Origin: Verrucomicrobiota bacterium
Lineage (GTDB): Bacteria; Verrucomicrobiota; Verrucomicrobiia; Limisphaerales; UBA9464
Assembly: GCA_947471985.1 (NCBI GenBank)
Contig: CANIZL010000022.1
Location: forward strand, 1-64,000
Direction of reading: 5' to 3'
DNA length: 64,000 nt
Both the position numbers and the translations under genes were made by a program. This document shows, piece by piece, positions 35,925 to 42,891 of the stretch (position 1 is the stretch's first letter; each line of letters begins with the position of its first letter). Under the pieces are notes generated by a model. That model worked only from the letters and a program-made list of their open reading frames with translations, ran no database searches and was not told the DNA's origin.

Positions 35925-36041
35925 TGCGGCAAGCTGTCACATCCGCCCCCGGTGAATCCAGTCGCACTGCTCCCCGTCGACGCCAGGCAACGGCGGGGCA
36001 ACACCCATTGCCAGCGGGCTCACAGTTTCCGAGGGTGGGGC

Positions 36042-37457
36042 ATGCCGATCCCTGTTCTCACCGTGGAGCAAATGCGGGCTTGGGAAACTGCGTCATGGGC
36101 CGCCGGTATCCGCGCGATCGACGTCATCGCCCAGGTGGGGCACCGGATCGGTGATTGGCTGCTCACCCATTCGACACCGGAGGACGCGTTCATCTTCCTC
36201 GCCGGCCGGGGACACAACGGCGACGACGCACGCGCGGCCAGTCACTGGATCGGCTGGCGCCGGAACCAGCGGATGATCTCCGTGACGGACCCCATCGCGG
36301 CCACCGCGGAAATCGCGACGGAATTGCCGCGGGCAGCTGCCCGAGCTCCACGGGTCTGGGTGATCGATGCTTTGTTTGGGATTGGCCTCAATCGTCCCTT
36401 CACACGCCCGTGGTGCCAATTGATCGAGGAACTGAATCGCCAAACGGCCGGCCGGGCTTTCCGAGTTGTCGCCGTCGATGTTCCCTCCGGACTGACCGAT
36501 GACACTGGTGGGACAGCCGGGGCCTTGGTGATCGCCACCGACACCCTGACCGTGGGTGCGCCCAAACGGGGATTGGTGGGATTAGCCGCCGCCGGACGGA
36601 TCGAAGTGCTCACCGACATCGGTCTGGCGCCCGCGGGAGGCCCCCACGAACCCGCCAGTCCGCTGGACTGGTGCACCGAGGCCGACTTCACCAATTTCCC
36701 ACCCCGACGGCTCACCGCCGCTCACAAGGGGACCCAAGGGCATTTGTTGATCGTCGCCGGTAGTCCGGGTTATCACGGCGCTGCCGTATTGGCGGCCCGG
36801 GCAGCGCTGAGAGCCGGTCCGGGTTTGGTGACCGTGGTGTGCGATCCCGCCGCTTACGGACCGGTGGCCGCCCAACTCGCCCAACCCATGGTGCACGCCT
36901 GGCGGGAAGGATTCGCGCCCCCCGTTTCGGTGACCGCCGCTGTCGTCGGCCCGGGTTTGGCGGCACCCGAATTGCCGCCGGGACTGCAACGCTGGGTTCA
37001 ATCGCTGTGGCGGGACTTTCCCGGACCGGTACTTGCGGACGCGACGGCGCTCGATTGGCTTCCGGGACGGCCCACGCCCGCCGCGCCCCGGATACTCACT
37101 CCGCATCCCGGCGAAACGGCACGTTTGCTCGGTGTATCGACCCAGTCCGTACAAGCGGACCGGGTGTCCGCCGTCCGGGAACTCTCGCAACGCTTCCGCG
37201 CCCTCGCCGTTCTGAAAGGTTACCAAACCCTGATCGCGGACGCCGCCACGACCACCGTGAATCCCACCGGCAATGCCGGACTGGCCCAAGGCGGCACGGG
37301 CGACGTCCTGGCGGGATTCATCGGCGGGTGGCTCGCCCGGGGGATCCCCGCCGAGCGTGCGGTAGCCTACGGGGTTTGGGCACACGGTGCGGCCGCGGAC
37401 CGGCTCACCAGCCACAGCACTTGGACCACGGAGGAACTGCTGGCGGAATTGCGCTGA
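36042..37457 (+). CDS. nnr: bifunctional NAD(P)HX epimerase / ADP-dependent NAD(P)HX dehydratase
   Basis: A 471-residue cytosolic repair enzyme that epimerises and dehydrates damaged NAD(P)H hydrates. The ATG at 36042 follows a GAGGGTGGGG ribosome binding site. The N-terminal epimerase (YjeF_N) half has PVLTVEQMRAWETASWAAG, DALFGIGLNRPF and VVAVDVPSGLTDDTGGTAGA. Its nucleotide loop is GRGHNGDDARAA, where most homologues have GxGNNGGDGxxxAR. The C-terminal dehydratase has HKGTQGHLLIVAGSPGYHGA, LTPHPGETARLLG, VLKGYQTLIADA and the NTGNAGLAQGGTGDVL-like PTGNAGLAQGGTGDVLAGFI. It is divergently placed from the OmpA-domain gene. Confidence 0.92.
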   Translation: MPIPVLTVEQMRAWETASWAAGIRAIDVIAQVGHRIGDWLLTHSTPEDAFIFLAGRGHNGDDARAASHWIGWRRNQRMISVTDPIAATAEIATELPRAAARAPRVWVIDALFGIGLNRPFTRPWCQLIEELNRQTAGRAFRVVAVDVPSGLTDDTGGTAGALVIATDTLTVGAPKRGLVGLAAAGRIEVLTDIGLAPAGGPHEPASPLDWCTEADFTNFPPRRLTAAHKGTQGHLLIVAGSPGYHGAAVLAARAALRAGPGLVTVVCDPAAYGPVAAQLAQPMVHAWREGFAPPVSVTAAVVGPGLAAPELPPGLQRWVQSLWRDFPGPVLADATALDWLPGRPTPAAPRILTPHPGETARLLGVSTQSVQADRVSAVRELSQRFRALAVLKGYQTLIADAATTTVNPTGNAGLAQGGTGDVLAGFIGGWLARGIPAERAVAYGVWAHGAAADRLTSHSTWTTEELLAELR

Positions 37458-37479: not shown

Positions 37480-38061
37480 TTATTTCCTCGCCTGGAGCTT
37501 CGCCTTGGTCGCCGCCTGCAGATCTTCGACGTCCGGCTTCACCTCGCTCCGGGTCGTGGAATCCATGCGGTCGATGAACAAAATCCCATTCAAGTGATCG
37601 ACCTCGTGCTGCACCGCCCGCGCCAGCAGACCGCCCGCGCGGAAGGAGAACTCTTCTCCGCGCTCATTCGTGGCCGTGACCTCGACTTCGGCGGGCCGCT
37701 CGATATCGCCAAAAATCTCCGGAAAACTGAGGCATCCTTCCGGACCGCGCGCGCGCGGCCCGACCGGAGTGATCTGGGGATTGATGAGCGCCAGCGGCAT
37801 GAAGGAATCCACGTCAGCCGGCTGACCACCCACCCACAGCTGCGAGGGCCGATCCTTGACGCCGCGCACGTCGACCACGCACATCTGCCGGGCCACGCCG
37901 ACTTGCTGCGCCGCGAGTCCGACGCCCCGGGCCGCATACATCGTCTCCATGAGGTCGGCGAGGAATCCCCGCACTTCGTCATCCACCCGTTCCACACGGG
38001 CACCTTTCTTGCGCAGCACGGGCTCGCCGTACTTAACCACAGTCAACACCATGAGGGGCAT
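37480..38061 (-). CDS. def: peptide deformylase
   Basis: A 193-residue metalloenzyme that removes the N-formyl group from nascent proteins. All three motifs are present: GVGLAAQQVG (motif 1), EGCLSFP with the metal-ligand Cys (motif 2) and QHEVDHLNGILFID with HExxH-type QHEVDH (motif 3). The chosen start gives MPLMVLTVVKYGEPVLRKKG; a second ATG nine bases downstream is equally possible. The C-terminus is slightly extended (STTRSEVKPDVEDLQAATKA). It ends 22 bases from the converging NAD(P)HX repair gene and its 5' end diverges from the M42 peptidase. Confidence 0.95.
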   Translation of the reverse strand: MPLMVLTVVKYGEPVLRKKGARVERVDDEVRGFLADLMETMYAARGVGLAAQQVGVARQMCVVDVRGVKDRPSQLWVGGQPADVDSFMPLALINPQITPVGPRARGPEGCLSFPEIFGDIERPAEVEVTATNERGEEFSFRAGGLLARAVQHEVDHLNGILFIDRMDSTTRSEVKPDVEDLQAATKAKLQARK

Positions 38062-38146
38062 GATAAGGCATGTCCCGCCCCGGAAACAACAAAGACCCGC
38101 TCGGGTCCACTTTGCCCCCGGCCGTTCATCCGCTACCGATCCGCCG

Positions 38147-39217
38147 ATGCGTGCTGAATCACTCCGTTTTCTGGAAGAATTGGTCAACACACCCAGCCCG
38201 GTGGGGCATGAGGTGCGCGGGCTCCGGTTGTGGCGGGATTACGCCGGCAAATTCGCCGACGAAACGTTTTCCGACAGTTACGGCAATACCGTGGCGATCG
38301 TGAACAAAGGCCGCGGCCCACGCCTCATGCTCGCGGCGCACGCCGACGAAATCGCCATGGCCGTGAACTACGTCAATGACGCCGGCTACATTTACGTCAA
38401 ACGGATGGGCGGCATCGACCCCGGCATCACCAAGGCGCAGCGGGTCACCATCCACACGCGCGGCGGCCCGATCCTCGGCGTCGTCGGCAACGTGGCGATC
38501 CATCTCACCAAGTCGGAAGGGGATGCGAAGCTGCCCAAGATCCACGACCTGTTCATCGACATCGGCGCCCGCAATCGGGAGGAGGCCTTAAAACTCGTGC
38601 GGGTGGGGGATCCGATCACGCTCAACGACCGATTTGAACTGCTCCGCAATGACCTCGCCGTGGCCCGGGCCTTTGATAACCGCATCGGCACCTGGGCCGT
38701 GGCCGAGACGCTGCGATTGCTCCAGCCCCACTTGAAGAAACTGGCGTGCGAAGTCTGCGCCGTGGCGAATGTGCAGGAGGAAGTCGGACTGTTTGGAGCG
38801 CGCCAGATCGCGTATTCCCTGCAGCCGGACGTGGCGCTGGTAGTGGATGTCACTCACGCCACCGACTACCCGACGGTGAGCCGGGAACAACACGGCGACG
38901 TCCGCCTCGGCCAGGGGCCGACGGTCGTTCACGGCGGCTGCAATCATCCCGAAGTCGTGGCGCGTCTGGAGACGGTGGCCGCCGACAAGGGTATTTCGCT
39001 CCAGCACGAAGCCATGAGCGCCACCAGCGGCACGGATACCGACGTCATTTTCTGGACGCGGGGCGGCATTCCCAGCGCGTTGATCAGCCTGCCGAACCGC
39101 TACATGCACTCGCCGGTGGAAGTGGTGAACCTGAAGGATCTTCAACAAATTCCCGAGCTAATGGCCGCCTTTGCCCTGAGCCTGAAGAAGGGCGAGTCCT
39201 TCCGGGTTGCGGTGTAA
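38147..39217 (+). CDS. M42 family metallopeptidase (glutamyl aminopeptidase-like)
   Basis: A 356-residue cytosolic dinuclear-metal aminopeptidase of the M42 (TET/FrvX/PepA) family. Metal and active-site motifs are RLMLAAHADEIAMAV (His, Asp), the bridging Asp in VARAFDNRIGTWA, the general base and metal Glu in VANVQEEVGLFGARQ, the Asp in VVDVTHATDYP, and the last His in LPNRYMHSPVEVVNL. AMSATSGTDTDVIFWTRGGI is the usual C-terminal signature. Length is normal. It is the first gene of a run 38.1-42.9 kb on the same strand; the ATP-grasp gene begins 41 bases after its stop, so a co-transcribed supply of free amino acids or peptides is conceivable. Confidence 0.93.
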   Translation: MRAESLRFLEELVNTPSPVGHEVRGLRLWRDYAGKFADETFSDSYGNTVAIVNKGRGPRLMLAAHADEIAMAVNYVNDAGYIYVKRMGGIDPGITKAQRVTIHTRGGPILGVVGNVAIHLTKSEGDAKLPKIHDLFIDIGARNREEALKLVRVGDPITLNDRFELLRNDLAVARAFDNRIGTWAVAETLRLLQPHLKKLACEVCAVANVQEEVGLFGARQIAYSLQPDVALVVDVTHATDYPTVSREQHGDVRLGQGPTVVHGGCNHPEVVARLETVAADKGISLQHEAMSATSGTDTDVIFWTRGGIPSALISLPNRYMHSPVEVVNLKDLQQIPELMAAFALSLKKGESFRVAV

Positions 39218-39258
39218 TCCCGCGACGATCCCACGACTCCGCTGATCCGATCATCGCC

Positions 39259-40527
39259 ATGAGCGTGACTGCCTCCCCGTCGGTGCTGGTGCTGGGTGTT
39301 GGCGCCTTCACCCAGGGTTTCCTCCACATCCTGCGCGAAGGGGGTGCCGACGTGCGCGGTTATCTGACCCGCTCCTACGGCCACTATGGACCGCGCTTGG
39401 AAGCGCCCTGCCAATCGGTGGACGATCTGCCGAATCCCTGCGCGTGGATCCGTGAACAGCAGCCCGACCTGCTGGTTCCGATGTCCATCGAATGGGCGAT
39501 CAAGCCGTGGACGGAGGAGTTTCTGGCCCTGAACCCGCCCCTGCTCTGCGCCACGGGCGAGGGACTCCGACTCGAGCGTGAGCGGGATTTCGCCCGGGAA
39601 TTGTGCGAACGCTTCGGCATTCCGTTTCCCCGCGCCCGTTTCGCCCCGACCCGCGCCACCGCCGAGCATTGGGTTCGCACGGAAAATCGGGCGTTTGTCA
39701 TCAAGAATCCCCTCTGCTCGCCGACGAGCCCGATTCATACGATCGTCTGCGAAACCCCGCAGGACACATTGGCCTGGCTGCCGCGTATGGATGATTCCGA
39801 AGGTATCTTCCTCCAGGAATACCTCGGTCGTCGCGAAGCGGGACACATCGCCCTGGTCAGCGCCGGGGAAATCTACCCGCTCGTTACCAATCAGGAATAC
39901 AAGCGGGCCTTCAACGGCAACCTGGGCATCGTCGCCGGCGCCCCGCTGGGCGGCCTGGTGGAACGGGACGAAAACGACCGCTACGGCCTCGTCCGGGAAC
40001 TGCTGGAGCCCTTGCGGCCCTGGTTCCGGGAGGTGGGCTTTCACGGTCCCGTGCAGGTCACCGCCATCCGCCACGAAAATCGTTGGCACGTGCTTGAGTA
40101 CAACGTTCGCCTCGGCGTCACCAGCGGACCGATGATCCTCCGGCTTTTGGCGAATCCGTTGGCCACCCTGCTCGCCTGCGCCCGGAACGAACCCCTGCGG
40201 CCCGTCTGGCGCGAGAACCTGCGGTACGGCTGCAATCTCACGCTCGCCGGCTACGGCTACCCCTTCACTCAGCTCAATGGTCCGCCGATACCCGTAAACG
40301 TCGCCCGCCCACCGACGTGCGACGTTTGGTGGAATGAGGTCGCCGCAGCCGCCGACGGAACGGGAATCGACGCCACGGGCCACCGGTTGTGTGATGTCGC
40401 GGCCCTGGGCACCACTCTCGAAGAGAGCATCGCCACCGCGTACGCCAACATCCGCGGCATTCGATCGCTCGGTTCGTATTACCGGACCGATGTGGGACAA
40501 TCCCTCTGGCCCCCCGGTGCAGAATGA
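39259..40527 (+). CDS. PurD-like ATP-grasp ligase (not canonical GAR synthetase)
   Basis: A 422-residue ATP-grasp protein resembling phosphoribosylamine-glycine ligases. The N-terminal Rossmann-like region (SVLVLGVGAFTQGFLHILRE) has GVGAFTQGF where PurD has GxGGREHA. The lid region has ARELCERFGIPFPRARFAPT. The ATP-binding strands include RAFVIKNPLCSPTSPIHTIV and GIFLQEYLGRREAGHIALVS. The metal-binding end is GFHGPVQVTAIRHENRWHVL then EYNVRLGVTSGPMILRLLAN, equivalent to the E-x-N-x-R motif. The tail (LEESIATAYANIRGIRSLGS) matches the PurD C-domain. The altered N-terminal signature and the context (start of alr overlaps its stop by four bases) argue for an amine/carboxylate ligase of other specificity. 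The true substrate is unknown. Confidence 0.8.
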   Translation: MSVTASPSVLVLGVGAFTQGFLHILREGGADVRGYLTRSYGHYGPRLEAPCQSVDDLPNPCAWIREQQPDLLVPMSIEWAIKPWTEEFLALNPPLLCATGEGLRLERERDFARELCERFGIPFPRARFAPTRATAEHWVRTENRAFVIKNPLCSPTSPIHTIVCETPQDTLAWLPRMDDSEGIFLQEYLGRREAGHIALVSAGEIYPLVTNQEYKRAFNGNLGIVAGAPLGGLVERDENDRYGLVRELLEPLRPWFREVGFHGPVQVTAIRHENRWHVLEYNVRLGVTSGPMILRLLANPLATLLACARNEPLRPVWRENLRYGCNLTLAGYGYPFTQLNGPPIPVNVARPPTCDVWWNEVAAAADGTGIDATGHRLCDVAALGTTLEESIATAYANIRGIRSLGSYYRTDVGQSLWPPGAE

Positions 40528-41678
40528 GCGCCCCGTTCCTCACCAGCGACCCCCGACCTCCCCGGCCGGCCTGGGTCGAGGTCGACCTGGATGCCGTGGA
40601 GCACAATCTGCGGCAAATCCGGTCCGACCTTCCCGCACACGTCCGACTGATGCATGTCGTGAAGGACGAAGCCTACGGACTCGGGGCGCTGGAAGTGGCG
40701 CGCTGTTCGGTGCGTTTGGGGGTTGATGCCCTGGCCACCTTCACCGTGGGCGAAGCCATGCGCCTCCGCACCCGCGGCATCGAGGCTCCGATCCTGCTGC
40801 TGGGCGAAAGGACCGAGGAAGAATTCCCATGGCTGGTGGACCACCGGCTCATGACGTGCGTCGGCTCGCTCGCGGTGGCGGAGGCCCTGAACGCCTTTGC
40901 CGCCCGCGAGCAAAGACGGATCACGGTGCACCTGAAGATCAATTCGGGTATGAACCGCTTTGGTTTTCCGTGGCGTTCCGCCGCTGACTGGGCACCGGCC
41001 GTCGCCCGGCTGCCGCATCTGGAAATTGCTGGCGCCCTGACGCACTTCGCCCAGAGCGACGAACTGATAAAGACGTTCGCCCGCCAGCAGCTCGCCAACT
41101 TCCAGGAAGCCGTGGCCATCCTGCGACAGTCGGGAGTGCCCGTGCCCTGCCTGCACACCTGCAACAGCGGGGGCTTTCTCGATCTGCCGGAGGCCCACGC
41201 CGACATGGTCCGGGTCGGCATCCTGGCGCTCGGTGTTTATCCGTCCGCCGTGTGCCGTCGACTGCCCGACTTGCGGCCGGTCATGACCGTCAAGGCCCGG
41301 ATCACTGCGCTACAGCACCTCGAACCCGGCGACACGGTGGGTTACGGCATGCGATACCGGGCGGAAACCCCGCGCCGGATCGCCGTCCTGCCGCTGGGTT
41401 ATGGCGACGGTTTCCCGCGCGTGCGGAACGAAGGCGCCGCCTTGATTGGCGGACAGCGCGCTCCGTTGGTGGGCGGCACCGCCATGGATGCCATTACGGT
41501 GGATGTCACGGACATCCCAACCGCGCAACTGGGCGATGAAGCCGTACTCATGGGACGGCAAGGAGACGCGGAGATTACCGCCCACGATGTGGCGGCCTTG
41601 AAGCGGAGTGTCAGCTACGACGTGCTCGCGGGCTGGCGCGGCCGGCTGCCGCGGCTCTACGTTCGCCGCGGCCGATGA
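40524..41678 (+). CDS. alr: alanine racemase (PLP-dependent)
   Basis: A 384-residue fold-type III PLP enzyme that interconverts L- and D-alanine or another small amino acid. The catalytic PLP lysine is K47 in HVVKDEAYGLGALEVA, where most alanine racemases have VVKANAYGHG. The second base is the tyrosine in VGYGMRYRAE at about residue 273. The phosphate-contacting region includes LHTCNSGGFLDLPEAHADMV and RVGILALGVYP; LPLGYGDGFPRV is the usual late motif. Length is normal. The start overlaps the ATP-grasp stop (ATGA) and its stop overlaps the next start (ATGA), so the three genes are translationally linked. Whether it supplies D-Ala for peptidoglycan or a pathway-specific D-amino acid is not clear. 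Confidence 0.9.
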   Translation: MSAPFLTSDPRPPRPAWVEVDLDAVEHNLRQIRSDLPAHVRLMHVVKDEAYGLGALEVARCSVRLGVDALATFTVGEAMRLRTRGIEAPILLLGERTEEEFPWLVDHRLMTCVGSLAVAEALNAFAAREQRRITVHLKINSGMNRFGFPWRSAADWAPAVARLPHLEIAGALTHFAQSDELIKTFARQQLANFQEAVAILRQSGVPVPCLHTCNSGGFLDLPEAHADMVRVGILALGVYPSAVCRRLPDLRPVMTVKARITALQHLEPGDTVGYGMRYRAETPRRIAVLPLGYGDGFPRVRNEGAALIGGQRAPLVGGTAMDAITVDVTDIPTAQLGDEAVLMGRQGDAEITAHDVAALKRSVSYDVLAGWRGRLPRLYVRRGR

Positions 41679-42502
41679 AACTGGTATTTTCCGAAGCGCC
41701 GCCCGACTACACCCGGTATGCGTTTCCGTACGTGGTTTGGGGCTTTCCCGAGCCGGGCGAAACTCCGGCTGATTTCTTCGCCGCCGGTTTCCTGCCCTCC
41801 TCGCCGCAACTCACGCGCTTTTATCTCTGCCGCCAATTGCGGGTGGGATTGCGGGACTGGCAGCCCAGTTCGGAGAATCGTCGGGTCCTGCGGAAAGGCG
41901 CGTCGGTCCGCTGCGAGCTGCTGCCGCGTGCGAATTTCGACTACCACGCGGAACGCCGGGCGTCCTGGCTCCGCTTCGCCGAAGAACGTTTCGGGGCCGG
42001 CGTCATGCCGGGCGAACGCCTGGACCGATTGATGGCTGCCCCAGTGATTTCCCATGTTCTGCACTTCCAGGACGCCACCACCGGAGCCGAATTGGGAACC
42101 GTATTGCTGTATCTGCAACCGCCCCGCGTCGCCTATTACTACTTTGCGTTTTATGATCTCGCGCAACGGGCCAGCCAACCCGGCATGCTCTTGATGACCC
42201 GCGCGATCGAGTATTTCGCCCACCTCGGCTGGGATCATCTGCACCTCGGCACCTGCTACAATGAGCGGGCGCTCTACAAAGCCCAGTTTCCGGGAACGGA
42301 GTATTTCACCGGCTGGAAGTGGTCCACCGACCTCACGGCCTTGAAGAGTCTGGTCCGCCAAGCCCCCACCACGGGACATCTGCTGGAAGACCCCACCCAC
42401 CCGGCCGGTGGCGGTCCGGACCCGGCGCATATCGGCGCCACCAGCCTGTTCCGAACCCCCAGCCTCACCCCCGCCGCGAGAGCGGACGGGTTTTTCGGTT
42501 GA
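41675..42502 (+). CDS. arginyl/leucyl-tRNA--protein transferase-like GNAT protein
   Basis: A 275-residue protein resembling the C-terminal GNAT domain of ATE1/Bpt amino-acyl-tRNA:protein transferases. Matching blocks are YHAERRASWLRFAEERFGAG, AYYYFAFYDLAQ, MLLMTRAIEYFAHLGWDHLH and LGTCYNERALYKAQFPGTEY followed by FTGWKWSTD. The N-terminus lacks the cysteine-rich C-x-YLP motif of true Bpt/ATE1. The C-terminal 45 residues are Pro/Gly-rich and probably disordered. It overlaps the alanine racemase by four bases. It may transfer an amino acid from tRNA or a ligase product to a small-molecule or protein acceptor; this is inference. Confidence 0.75.
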   Translation: MKLVFSEAPPDYTRYAFPYVVWGFPEPGETPADFFAAGFLPSSPQLTRFYLCRQLRVGLRDWQPSSENRRVLRKGASVRCELLPRANFDYHAERRASWLRFAEERFGAGVMPGERLDRLMAAPVISHVLHFQDATTGAELGTVLLYLQPPRVAYYYFAFYDLAQRASQPGMLLMTRAIEYFAHLGWDHLHLGTCYNERALYKAQFPGTEYFTGWKWSTDLTALKSLVRQAPTTGHLLEDPTHPAGGGPDPAHIGATSLFRTPSLTPAARADGFFG

Positions 42503-42534
42503 ATCCACCGGCGGAATCGTCGACAGAGGGAGCC

Positions 42535-42891
42535 GTGCAACCGTTTCAGATCATCTTCAATCCGACGAGCGCCGCGGAGTTGGCCAAGTTGCCCAAGGAA
42601 CTTCAGCTCTATGTGCTGGGACAGTTCCGCGGCCTGCCGCAAGAGGTGCAGGCCGACTCCGGCTTCGGCAGCCTGACCCGCGGCGGCCGCACGATGAAGC
42701 GGTATCATCTGGGGGATTACCGCGTATACTTTGAACGCCACCCGCTGGGAGTCGTAGTCCATCGGATCTTGAGTCGGAATACCCTGAAGGATTTCCTCTT
42801 TCGCTCGAGTTTGCCCACCGGTGAGGACGAAGCGTTGCAGGAGAATCCCCGATTTTGGGAGTTGATTGAGCAGGCGAAATCAACCCGTTAA
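42535..42891 (+). CDS. RelE/ParE-fold toxin-like protein, GTG start
   Basis: A 118-residue protein starting at GTG 42535, with GAGGGAG a few bases upstream. The N-terminal 75 residues look like a RelE-type domain: FQIIFNPTSAAELAKLPKEL, then LTRGGRTMKRYHLGDYRVYF and VVVHRILSRNTLKDF. RelE toxins cleave mRNA in the ribosome or inhibit gyrase (ParE). The C-terminal extension (LPTGEDEALQENPRFWELIE) is atypical, and no antitoxin gene is beside it. It begins 32 bases after the GNAT gene, so it may be the last member of that operon and not a toxin-antitoxin locus. Moderate certainty. Confidence 0.7.
   Translation: MQPFQIIFNPTSAAELAKLPKELQLYVLGQFRGLPQEVQADSGFGSLTRGGRTMKRYHLGDYRVYFERHPLGVVVHRILSRNTLKDFLFRSSLPTGEDEALQENPRFWELIEQAKSTR

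Follow-up and report, generated by a model that had tools for sequence, protein, structure and literature searches.

Among the ligases that handle D-amino acids, PylC is an ATP-grasp enzyme acting on methyl-D-ornithine. In the cross-bridges of Gram-positive bacteria the D-residues are introduced by ATP-grasp proteins and the L-residues by members of the GNAT superfamily (PMC2922099). GNAT enzymes which depend on tRNA also occur in the pathways to streptothricin, dehydrophos and pacidamycin (PMC12945691). Here we describe a 64,000-nucleotide stretch of a Verrucomicrobiota genome (positions 1 to 64,000 of contig CANIZL010000022.1, assembly GCA_947471985.1), referred to as the window, in which three overlapping genes encode a PurD-like ATP-grasp ligase, an alanine-racemase-type enzyme (Alr) and a GNAT protein resembling arginyl- and leucyltransferases (ATE and Bpt). 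The assembly (G000, the window lying on its contig C22) has 6.4 Mb in 180 contigs and is 96% complete. We tentatively favour the view that the three genes, called here the cassette, form a dedicated three-enzyme module whose product would be a peptide or conjugate containing a D-amino acid, built from two aminoacyl groups of which one is activated by ATP and the other by tRNA.

The first-pass annotation, made from the sequence alone, had read five genes, from a peptidase to a RelE-like protein, as one coupled operon. All five open reading frames (ORFs) lie where it placed them and both ATGA start/stop overlaps are present in the sequence, but only the three overlapping genes constitute a conserved unit; the peptidase and the RelE-like gene stand outside it. 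Among 71 compared loci anchored on the ATP-grasp gene, the order ATP-grasp, Alr, GNAT on one strand was found in 46, an adjacent ATP-grasp-Alr pair in 18, and an ATP-grasp gene lying apart from the other two within the stretch in six; in one locus (L197 of genome G600; L and G numbers denote loci and genomes) all three genes are rearranged as Alr, GNAT, ATP-grasp on one strand. Since some of these stretches run into contig ends, incomplete units may be fewer than counted. A second sample comprised 78 relatives gathered by sequence, mostly metagenome-assembled genomes (MAGs) labelled Verrucomicrobia or Verrucomicrobiales, with one genome per family outside the window's own family. A full-length close homologue of the ATP-grasp protein was present in 42 of them, and the cassette-type racemase in the same 42 and in G033, where the ATP-grasp gene is cut by the contig end. 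This strict co-occurrence of racemase and ligase was computed directly, as was the conserved unit. The GNAT was found in 52 relatives (one of them with a fragment at a contig end) and is present in nearly all genomes that carry the ligase-racemase pair. The linkage is kept in dozens of relatives, and when neighbouring ORFs were clustered only the three cassette families and their antisense shadows were widely conserved.

The ATP-grasp gene occurs in 131 of 320 genomes of the order (41%). In a sample of 387 genomes of the phylum it was found in three, two of them from the order (the window's genome and another) and the third being G199, a complete genome from another family of the class, which has the whole cassette. 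The cassette is also present in two MAGs labelled Calditrichia and Deferribacteres, and it was found in only one of 40 genomes of the phylum of the former. Proteins of these two MAGs nest among verrucomicrobial sequences in all three protein trees, and the three proteins show correlated distances (r 0.76-0.79 overall and 0.61-0.87 outside the window's family). The nesting and the correlation support transfer of the cassette as a unit without proving it, two of the trees having a single outgroup sequence.

The window ligase scored 82 bits against TIGR00877 (80.7 in the genome search), far below the 288-bit equivalog cut-off for PurD, and the genome has a canonical PurD (495 bits) encoded on contig C18. 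The predicted structure of the ligase, built from 20 homologues with a mean predicted local distance difference test score (pLDDT) of 89, is nevertheless that of PurD over its full length: the best match in the PDB is 3lp8 (Z 37.0 over 394 residues, root-mean-square deviation (rmsd) 3.0), followed by 2yw2 (Z 36), and PurD folds score Z 31-37 as compared with 25 for PurT, 24 for PurK and 23.6 for PylC, the last being no better than PurK or biotin carboxylase. In Aquifex aeolicus PurD, K143 and K214 bind ATP, R287 binds the carboxylate, and Asp212 and Glu292 bind glycine (PMC8880213). The first three are retained as K149, K215 and R284 and are invariant in the ligase family; the ATP and Mg site and the carboxylate-binding Arg are common to both enzymes, and the QDHKR motif of PurD has a counterpart in QEYKR. 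The glycine side is altered, Asp212 being replaced by Glu213 and Glu292, the Glu of GDPE, by Ser289. As noticed in the first-pass annotation, the GGREHA signature is lost, with GVGAFTQ in its place; alignment with the genome's own PurD further showed PMSIEWA at the position of GPDNPL (GPxxPL). The PurD segment KADGLAxGKGV on the ATP side is replaced by the loop KNPLCSPTSPIHTI, which is nearly invariant in the ligase family, and a large set of other positions is invariant across distant genomes. Because of these retained and lost motifs it is likely that the carboxylate-phosphorylating chemistry has been kept, and that the ligase differs from PurD in its amino acid pocket as well as in its amine acceptor.

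The second enzyme is a clear member of the alanine racemase family, with 330 bits against TIGR00492 (cut-off 168) and both Pfam alanine racemase domains. Five loci of the genome match the racemase N-domain; one of them, on contig C116, encodes the canonical Alr with KANAYGHG around the lysine that carries pyridoxal phosphate (PLP). With canonical alr and purD genes elsewhere in the genome, the cassette enzymes are paralogues. The annotation had named a sole alr and a sole purD without linkage in relatives as the outcome that would speak against it; what was found is a second copy of each gene together with conserved linkage. The residues K47 and Y274 (the catalytic Lys and Tyr), R230 (the Arg pairing with the PLP nitrogen), R145 and Y365 are invariant across 20 racemase homologues, and we take the enzyme to be active. 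The KDEAYGLG sequence around the PLP lysine, pointed out as unusual, is correctly read in the window protein, but most members of the family have KDxAYGHG; with His in most homologues, KDEAYGLG was rejected as a functional signature. The fold type III, the catalytic Lys and Tyr and the PLP-binding residues are shared with Alr, the nearest solved structures being 8zpe and 5irp, both named Alanine racemase 2. What sets the cassette racemase apart is its fixed partnership with the ligase and ten positions which are invariant in the cassette family and different in the genome's own Alr; the family-specific invariants include W150, E180, K183, P298, R301, N302, D327 and R372. The residue at the position of Tyr365 narrows the pocket in alanine racemases, and our guess is that its conservation agrees best with D-Ala, or with a similarly small amino acid such as D-Ser, as the product.

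The third protein matches the arginyltransferase model PRK01305 weakly (E 1e-8) and was not listed for ATE_C (PF04377) at E 0.01, while 15 of 20 homologues match ATE_C with E down to 6e-9, and the GNAT of G199 passes the 25-bit cut-off with 31.7 bits. Searching solved structures by sequence with the GNAT profile yielded no match, and the protein was placed by fold comparison only. Its predicted structure (pLDDT 86) is closest to human ATE1 (8tzv, Z 16.5, 247 residues within model residues 1-272, rmsd 4.8), so that the likeness covers nearly the whole protein; the next folds are MprF/A-PGS (Z 13), FemX (10) and the streptothricin peptide synthases (10), mostly users of aminoacyl-tRNA. ATE enzymes carry a metal-binding cluster motif, CX2CXnCC (PMC10115844). 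The true ATE proteins of the phylum (L127 and L128) have this Cys cluster together with a segment like CPYLPGR. Both are lost in the cassette GNATs, and the likeness to arginyl/leucyltransferases without the Cys motif noted at first reading is therefore borne out. The Arg-rich helix SENRRxLRK and the LYKxQF (LYKxxF) motif are kept in the cassette GNATs and align with those of the true ATE proteins. Further ATE_C-type genes of the class were seen at L132 (genome G143), L133 and L135-L138. The L132 protein also has no Cys cluster, so the cassette GNAT is not alone in having lost it.

We hold with strong confidence that the three genes form a dedicated module and with moderate confidence the chemistry of each of its steps; we infer the substrates, the order of the steps, the use of aminoacyl-tRNA and the product. 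In the proposed scheme the racemase would supply the D-isomer of an amino acid, our guess being alanine or something similarly small such as serine. The ATP-grasp enzyme would then phosphorylate a carboxylate with ATP, most likely that of the D-amino acid, as PurD does with glycine, and the acyl phosphate would be coupled to an amine held by the remodelled N-terminal domain of the ligase rather than to phosphoribosylamine. Finally, the GNAT would move a second aminoacyl group from aminoacyl-tRNA onto a free amine, for which the alpha-amine of the newly installed D-residue is a plausible choice, giving an aminoacyl-D-aminoacyl-X compound. It is also possible, and we say this with reserve, that the cassette is a hybrid pathway in which a D-isomer introduced via ATP and another amino acid introduced via tRNA yield a new small peptide or aminoacyl-sugar conjugate, the unit having been passed between phyla and used across much of the order.

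Several points weigh against the proposed module. Twelve relatives that have neither ligase nor racemase still carry the GNAT, with nearly all of its conserved residues retained (10 of the 12 checked); since it survives in this state, the GNAT can work without the other two enzymes and may have a role of its own. The pair is present and the GNAT was not detected in three relatives (G035, G041 and G047). The use of aminoacyl-tRNA is carried over from the fold, and other GNATs use acyl-CoA; D-Ala as the substrate is a guess from one conserved residue. Apart from Alr, the Pfam and NCBIfam assignments of the window proteins are weak, and a function common to all cassette members, which are about 46-80% identical, is an assumption. 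The earlier proposal that the enzymes racemise an amino acid, activate it with ATP and attach it to an acceptor fits the residue losses and the fold matches, but is weakened by the GNAT of the 12 relatives lacking the pair.

The alternative that survives best, although we consider it unlikely, is that two systems share one operon, the pair making a D-aminoacyl conjugate and the GNAT being an independent N-terminal protein aminoacyltransferase of the ClpS N-degron pathway. In the window's family the GNAT is present in 45 of 47 genomes, the 12 without the pair included, ClpS is encoded in the window's genome and in most relatives, and the pair occurs without the GNAT in five loci (five genomes) of another family (f2) and in G047. 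Outside the window's family, however, the GNAT occurs only with the pair (in 7 of 8 genomes with it against none of 23 without it), and it adjoins the racemase in the 46 loci described above, with 4-bp overlaps in 12 of them. The loss of the ATE Cys cluster also argues against this alternative, as does the substitution L200R in the ALYK motif, otherwise invariant, which is common to six genomes of one genus (g7) that lack the pair (GNAT loci L106, L107, L109, L110, L111 and L114); three g7 relatives that have the pair keep Leu at this position. The six L200R cases may be a single event. Apart from synteny between close relatives, the stand-alone GNATs showed no conserved partners.

In three f2 loci a gene similar to flavin-dependent halogenases/monooxygenases directly follows the racemase in the place of the GNAT (Table 1; Pfam cut-off for Trp_halogenase, 21 bits). 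Because of this replacement, the data suggest that racemase and ligase are the core and that the third enzyme is a modifier which can vary. The CrcB-like and CarB-like ORFs that follow the halogenase-like gene in L066 and L169 were named from reading the sequence. The replacement, the patchy distribution and the known aminoacyl-tRNA-using GNATs of the streptothricin, dehydrophos and pacidamycin pathways (PMC12945691) would also suit a secondary-metabolite mini-cluster whose product, a small dipeptide that resembles an antibiotic or acts as a signal, is tailored in some lineages. We regard this as improbable: the loci share no conserved exporter, resistance gene or regulator, and a gene set carried by 41% of the order and by the majority of genomes in one family bears a closer resemblance to core metabolism. 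A role in the cell wall, where the pair would attach a D-amino acid to peptidoglycan, in its stem or cross-bridge, like aspartate racemase and the D-Asp ligase Aslfm in enterococci and the GNAT would add an L-amino acid like FemX, has in its favour that Gram-positive cross-bridges follow the same logic (PMC2922099) and that FemX is among the fold matches. It seems to us decidedly improbable, since the cassette protein has a single GNAT domain nearest to ATE1 whereas FemX has two, the ligase is nearest to PurD, the flanks of the cassette show no enrichment in cell-wall genes, and the presence within one order is patchy. Drift of a spare alanine racemase and a spare purD with no new joint role is hardly credible, for although both are homologous to housekeeping enzymes also encoded in the genome, they co-occur strictly, keep their order, have many invariant ligase positions across distant genomes and have lost the PurD acceptor motifs.

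Neither of the two neighbours first counted as parts of the system belongs to it: the M42 peptidase is absent from all other cassette loci compared, and among these loci the RelE-like gene adjoins the cassette in the window's genome only. Homologues of the latter, 80% identical, lie kilobases away from the cassette in L089 (13165-13521, +) and L090 (4349-4705, -). The RelE-like name itself is weakly founded (ParE_toxin E 0.0048, 17.9 bits, cut-off 23), and an identity of about 80% between genomes is unusually high for a toxin; a partner antitoxin was not systematically sought. The flanks at other cassette loci are unrelated and mostly housekeeping (Era-like GTPase, CarB, NADH dehydrogenase, ABC transporters, SpoU-type methylase). 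The NAGGN osmolyte system combines a GNAT, an ATP-grasp enzyme and an M42 peptidase; it was rejected as an explanation, with 44 bits for the window M42 protein against a cut-off of 397.75 bits and no conservation of M42 with the cassette. Anti-phage defence was likewise rejected, PADLOC giving no match for any of the five proteins. Just upstream of the peptidase in the window are a gene for a YjeF-type NAD(P)H-hydrate repair enzyme (35952-37457) and a convergent gene for peptide deformylase (37480-38142, -), and genes for nusA and IF-2 lie downstream.

Table 1 Features of the cassette locus (window positions) and the halogenase-like genes of three other loci
Feature	Position	Strand	Evidence
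M42 family aminopeptidase, ends 41 bp upstream of the ATP-grasp gene	38147..39217	+	Peptidase_M42 E 6e-82
PurD-like ATP-grasp ligase, 422 amino acids, first cassette gene	39259..40527	+	TIGR00877, predicted structure
ATGA start/stop overlap, ATP-grasp to racemase	40524..40527	+	sequence
Fold-type III PLP racemase, 384 amino acids, second alanine-racemase-type gene of the genome	40524..41678	+	TIGR00492
ATGA start/stop overlap, racemase to GNAT	41675..41678	+	sequence
ATE/Bpt-like GNAT aminoacyltransferase homologue without Cys cluster, 275 amino acids	41675..42502	+	PRK01305, predicted structure
RelE/ParE-like small protein, GTG start assumed, about 32 bp downstream of the GNAT gene	42535..42891	+	ParE_toxin below cut-off
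Halogenase/monooxygenase-like genes	L066:2342-3844, L166:2-1384, L169:2341-3843	-	Trp_halogenase 53 bits in L066

The text searches, limited to open-licence PMC papers, gave no description of a set of ATP-grasp ligase, alanine racemase and arginyltransferase. The cassette occurs often in an order whose genomes, as sampled here, are mostly fragmented and MAG-like; this frequency points to a widespread metabolite or conjugate. The cassette offers a natural example of PurD having taken on a different acceptor and of an ATE-type transferase that lacks the metal cluster, and with the complete genome G199 and many intact copies it is directly testable. Its logic is known from cross-bridge synthesis and from the tRNA-dependent antibiotic enzymes, but is built there from other subfamilies. 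In the RacD/Aslfm system for the D-Asp cross-bridge and in that of PylC, as in the proposed module, an ATP-grasp amide ligase is paired with a D-amino acid, whether this is made within the system or supplied to it; the ligases belong to other subfamilies, and an ATE-like GNAT is absent. Sba18, DhpH and PacB share with the cassette GNAT the fold superfamily and the presumed chemistry, but they are FemX-like with two GNAT domains, whereas the cassette protein is ATE-like. Combinations of ATP-grasp, GNAT and racemase enzymes are already known in cell-wall and antibiotic chemistry, but a set assembled from enzymes of the purine and N-degron pathways did not turn up in the literature searched.

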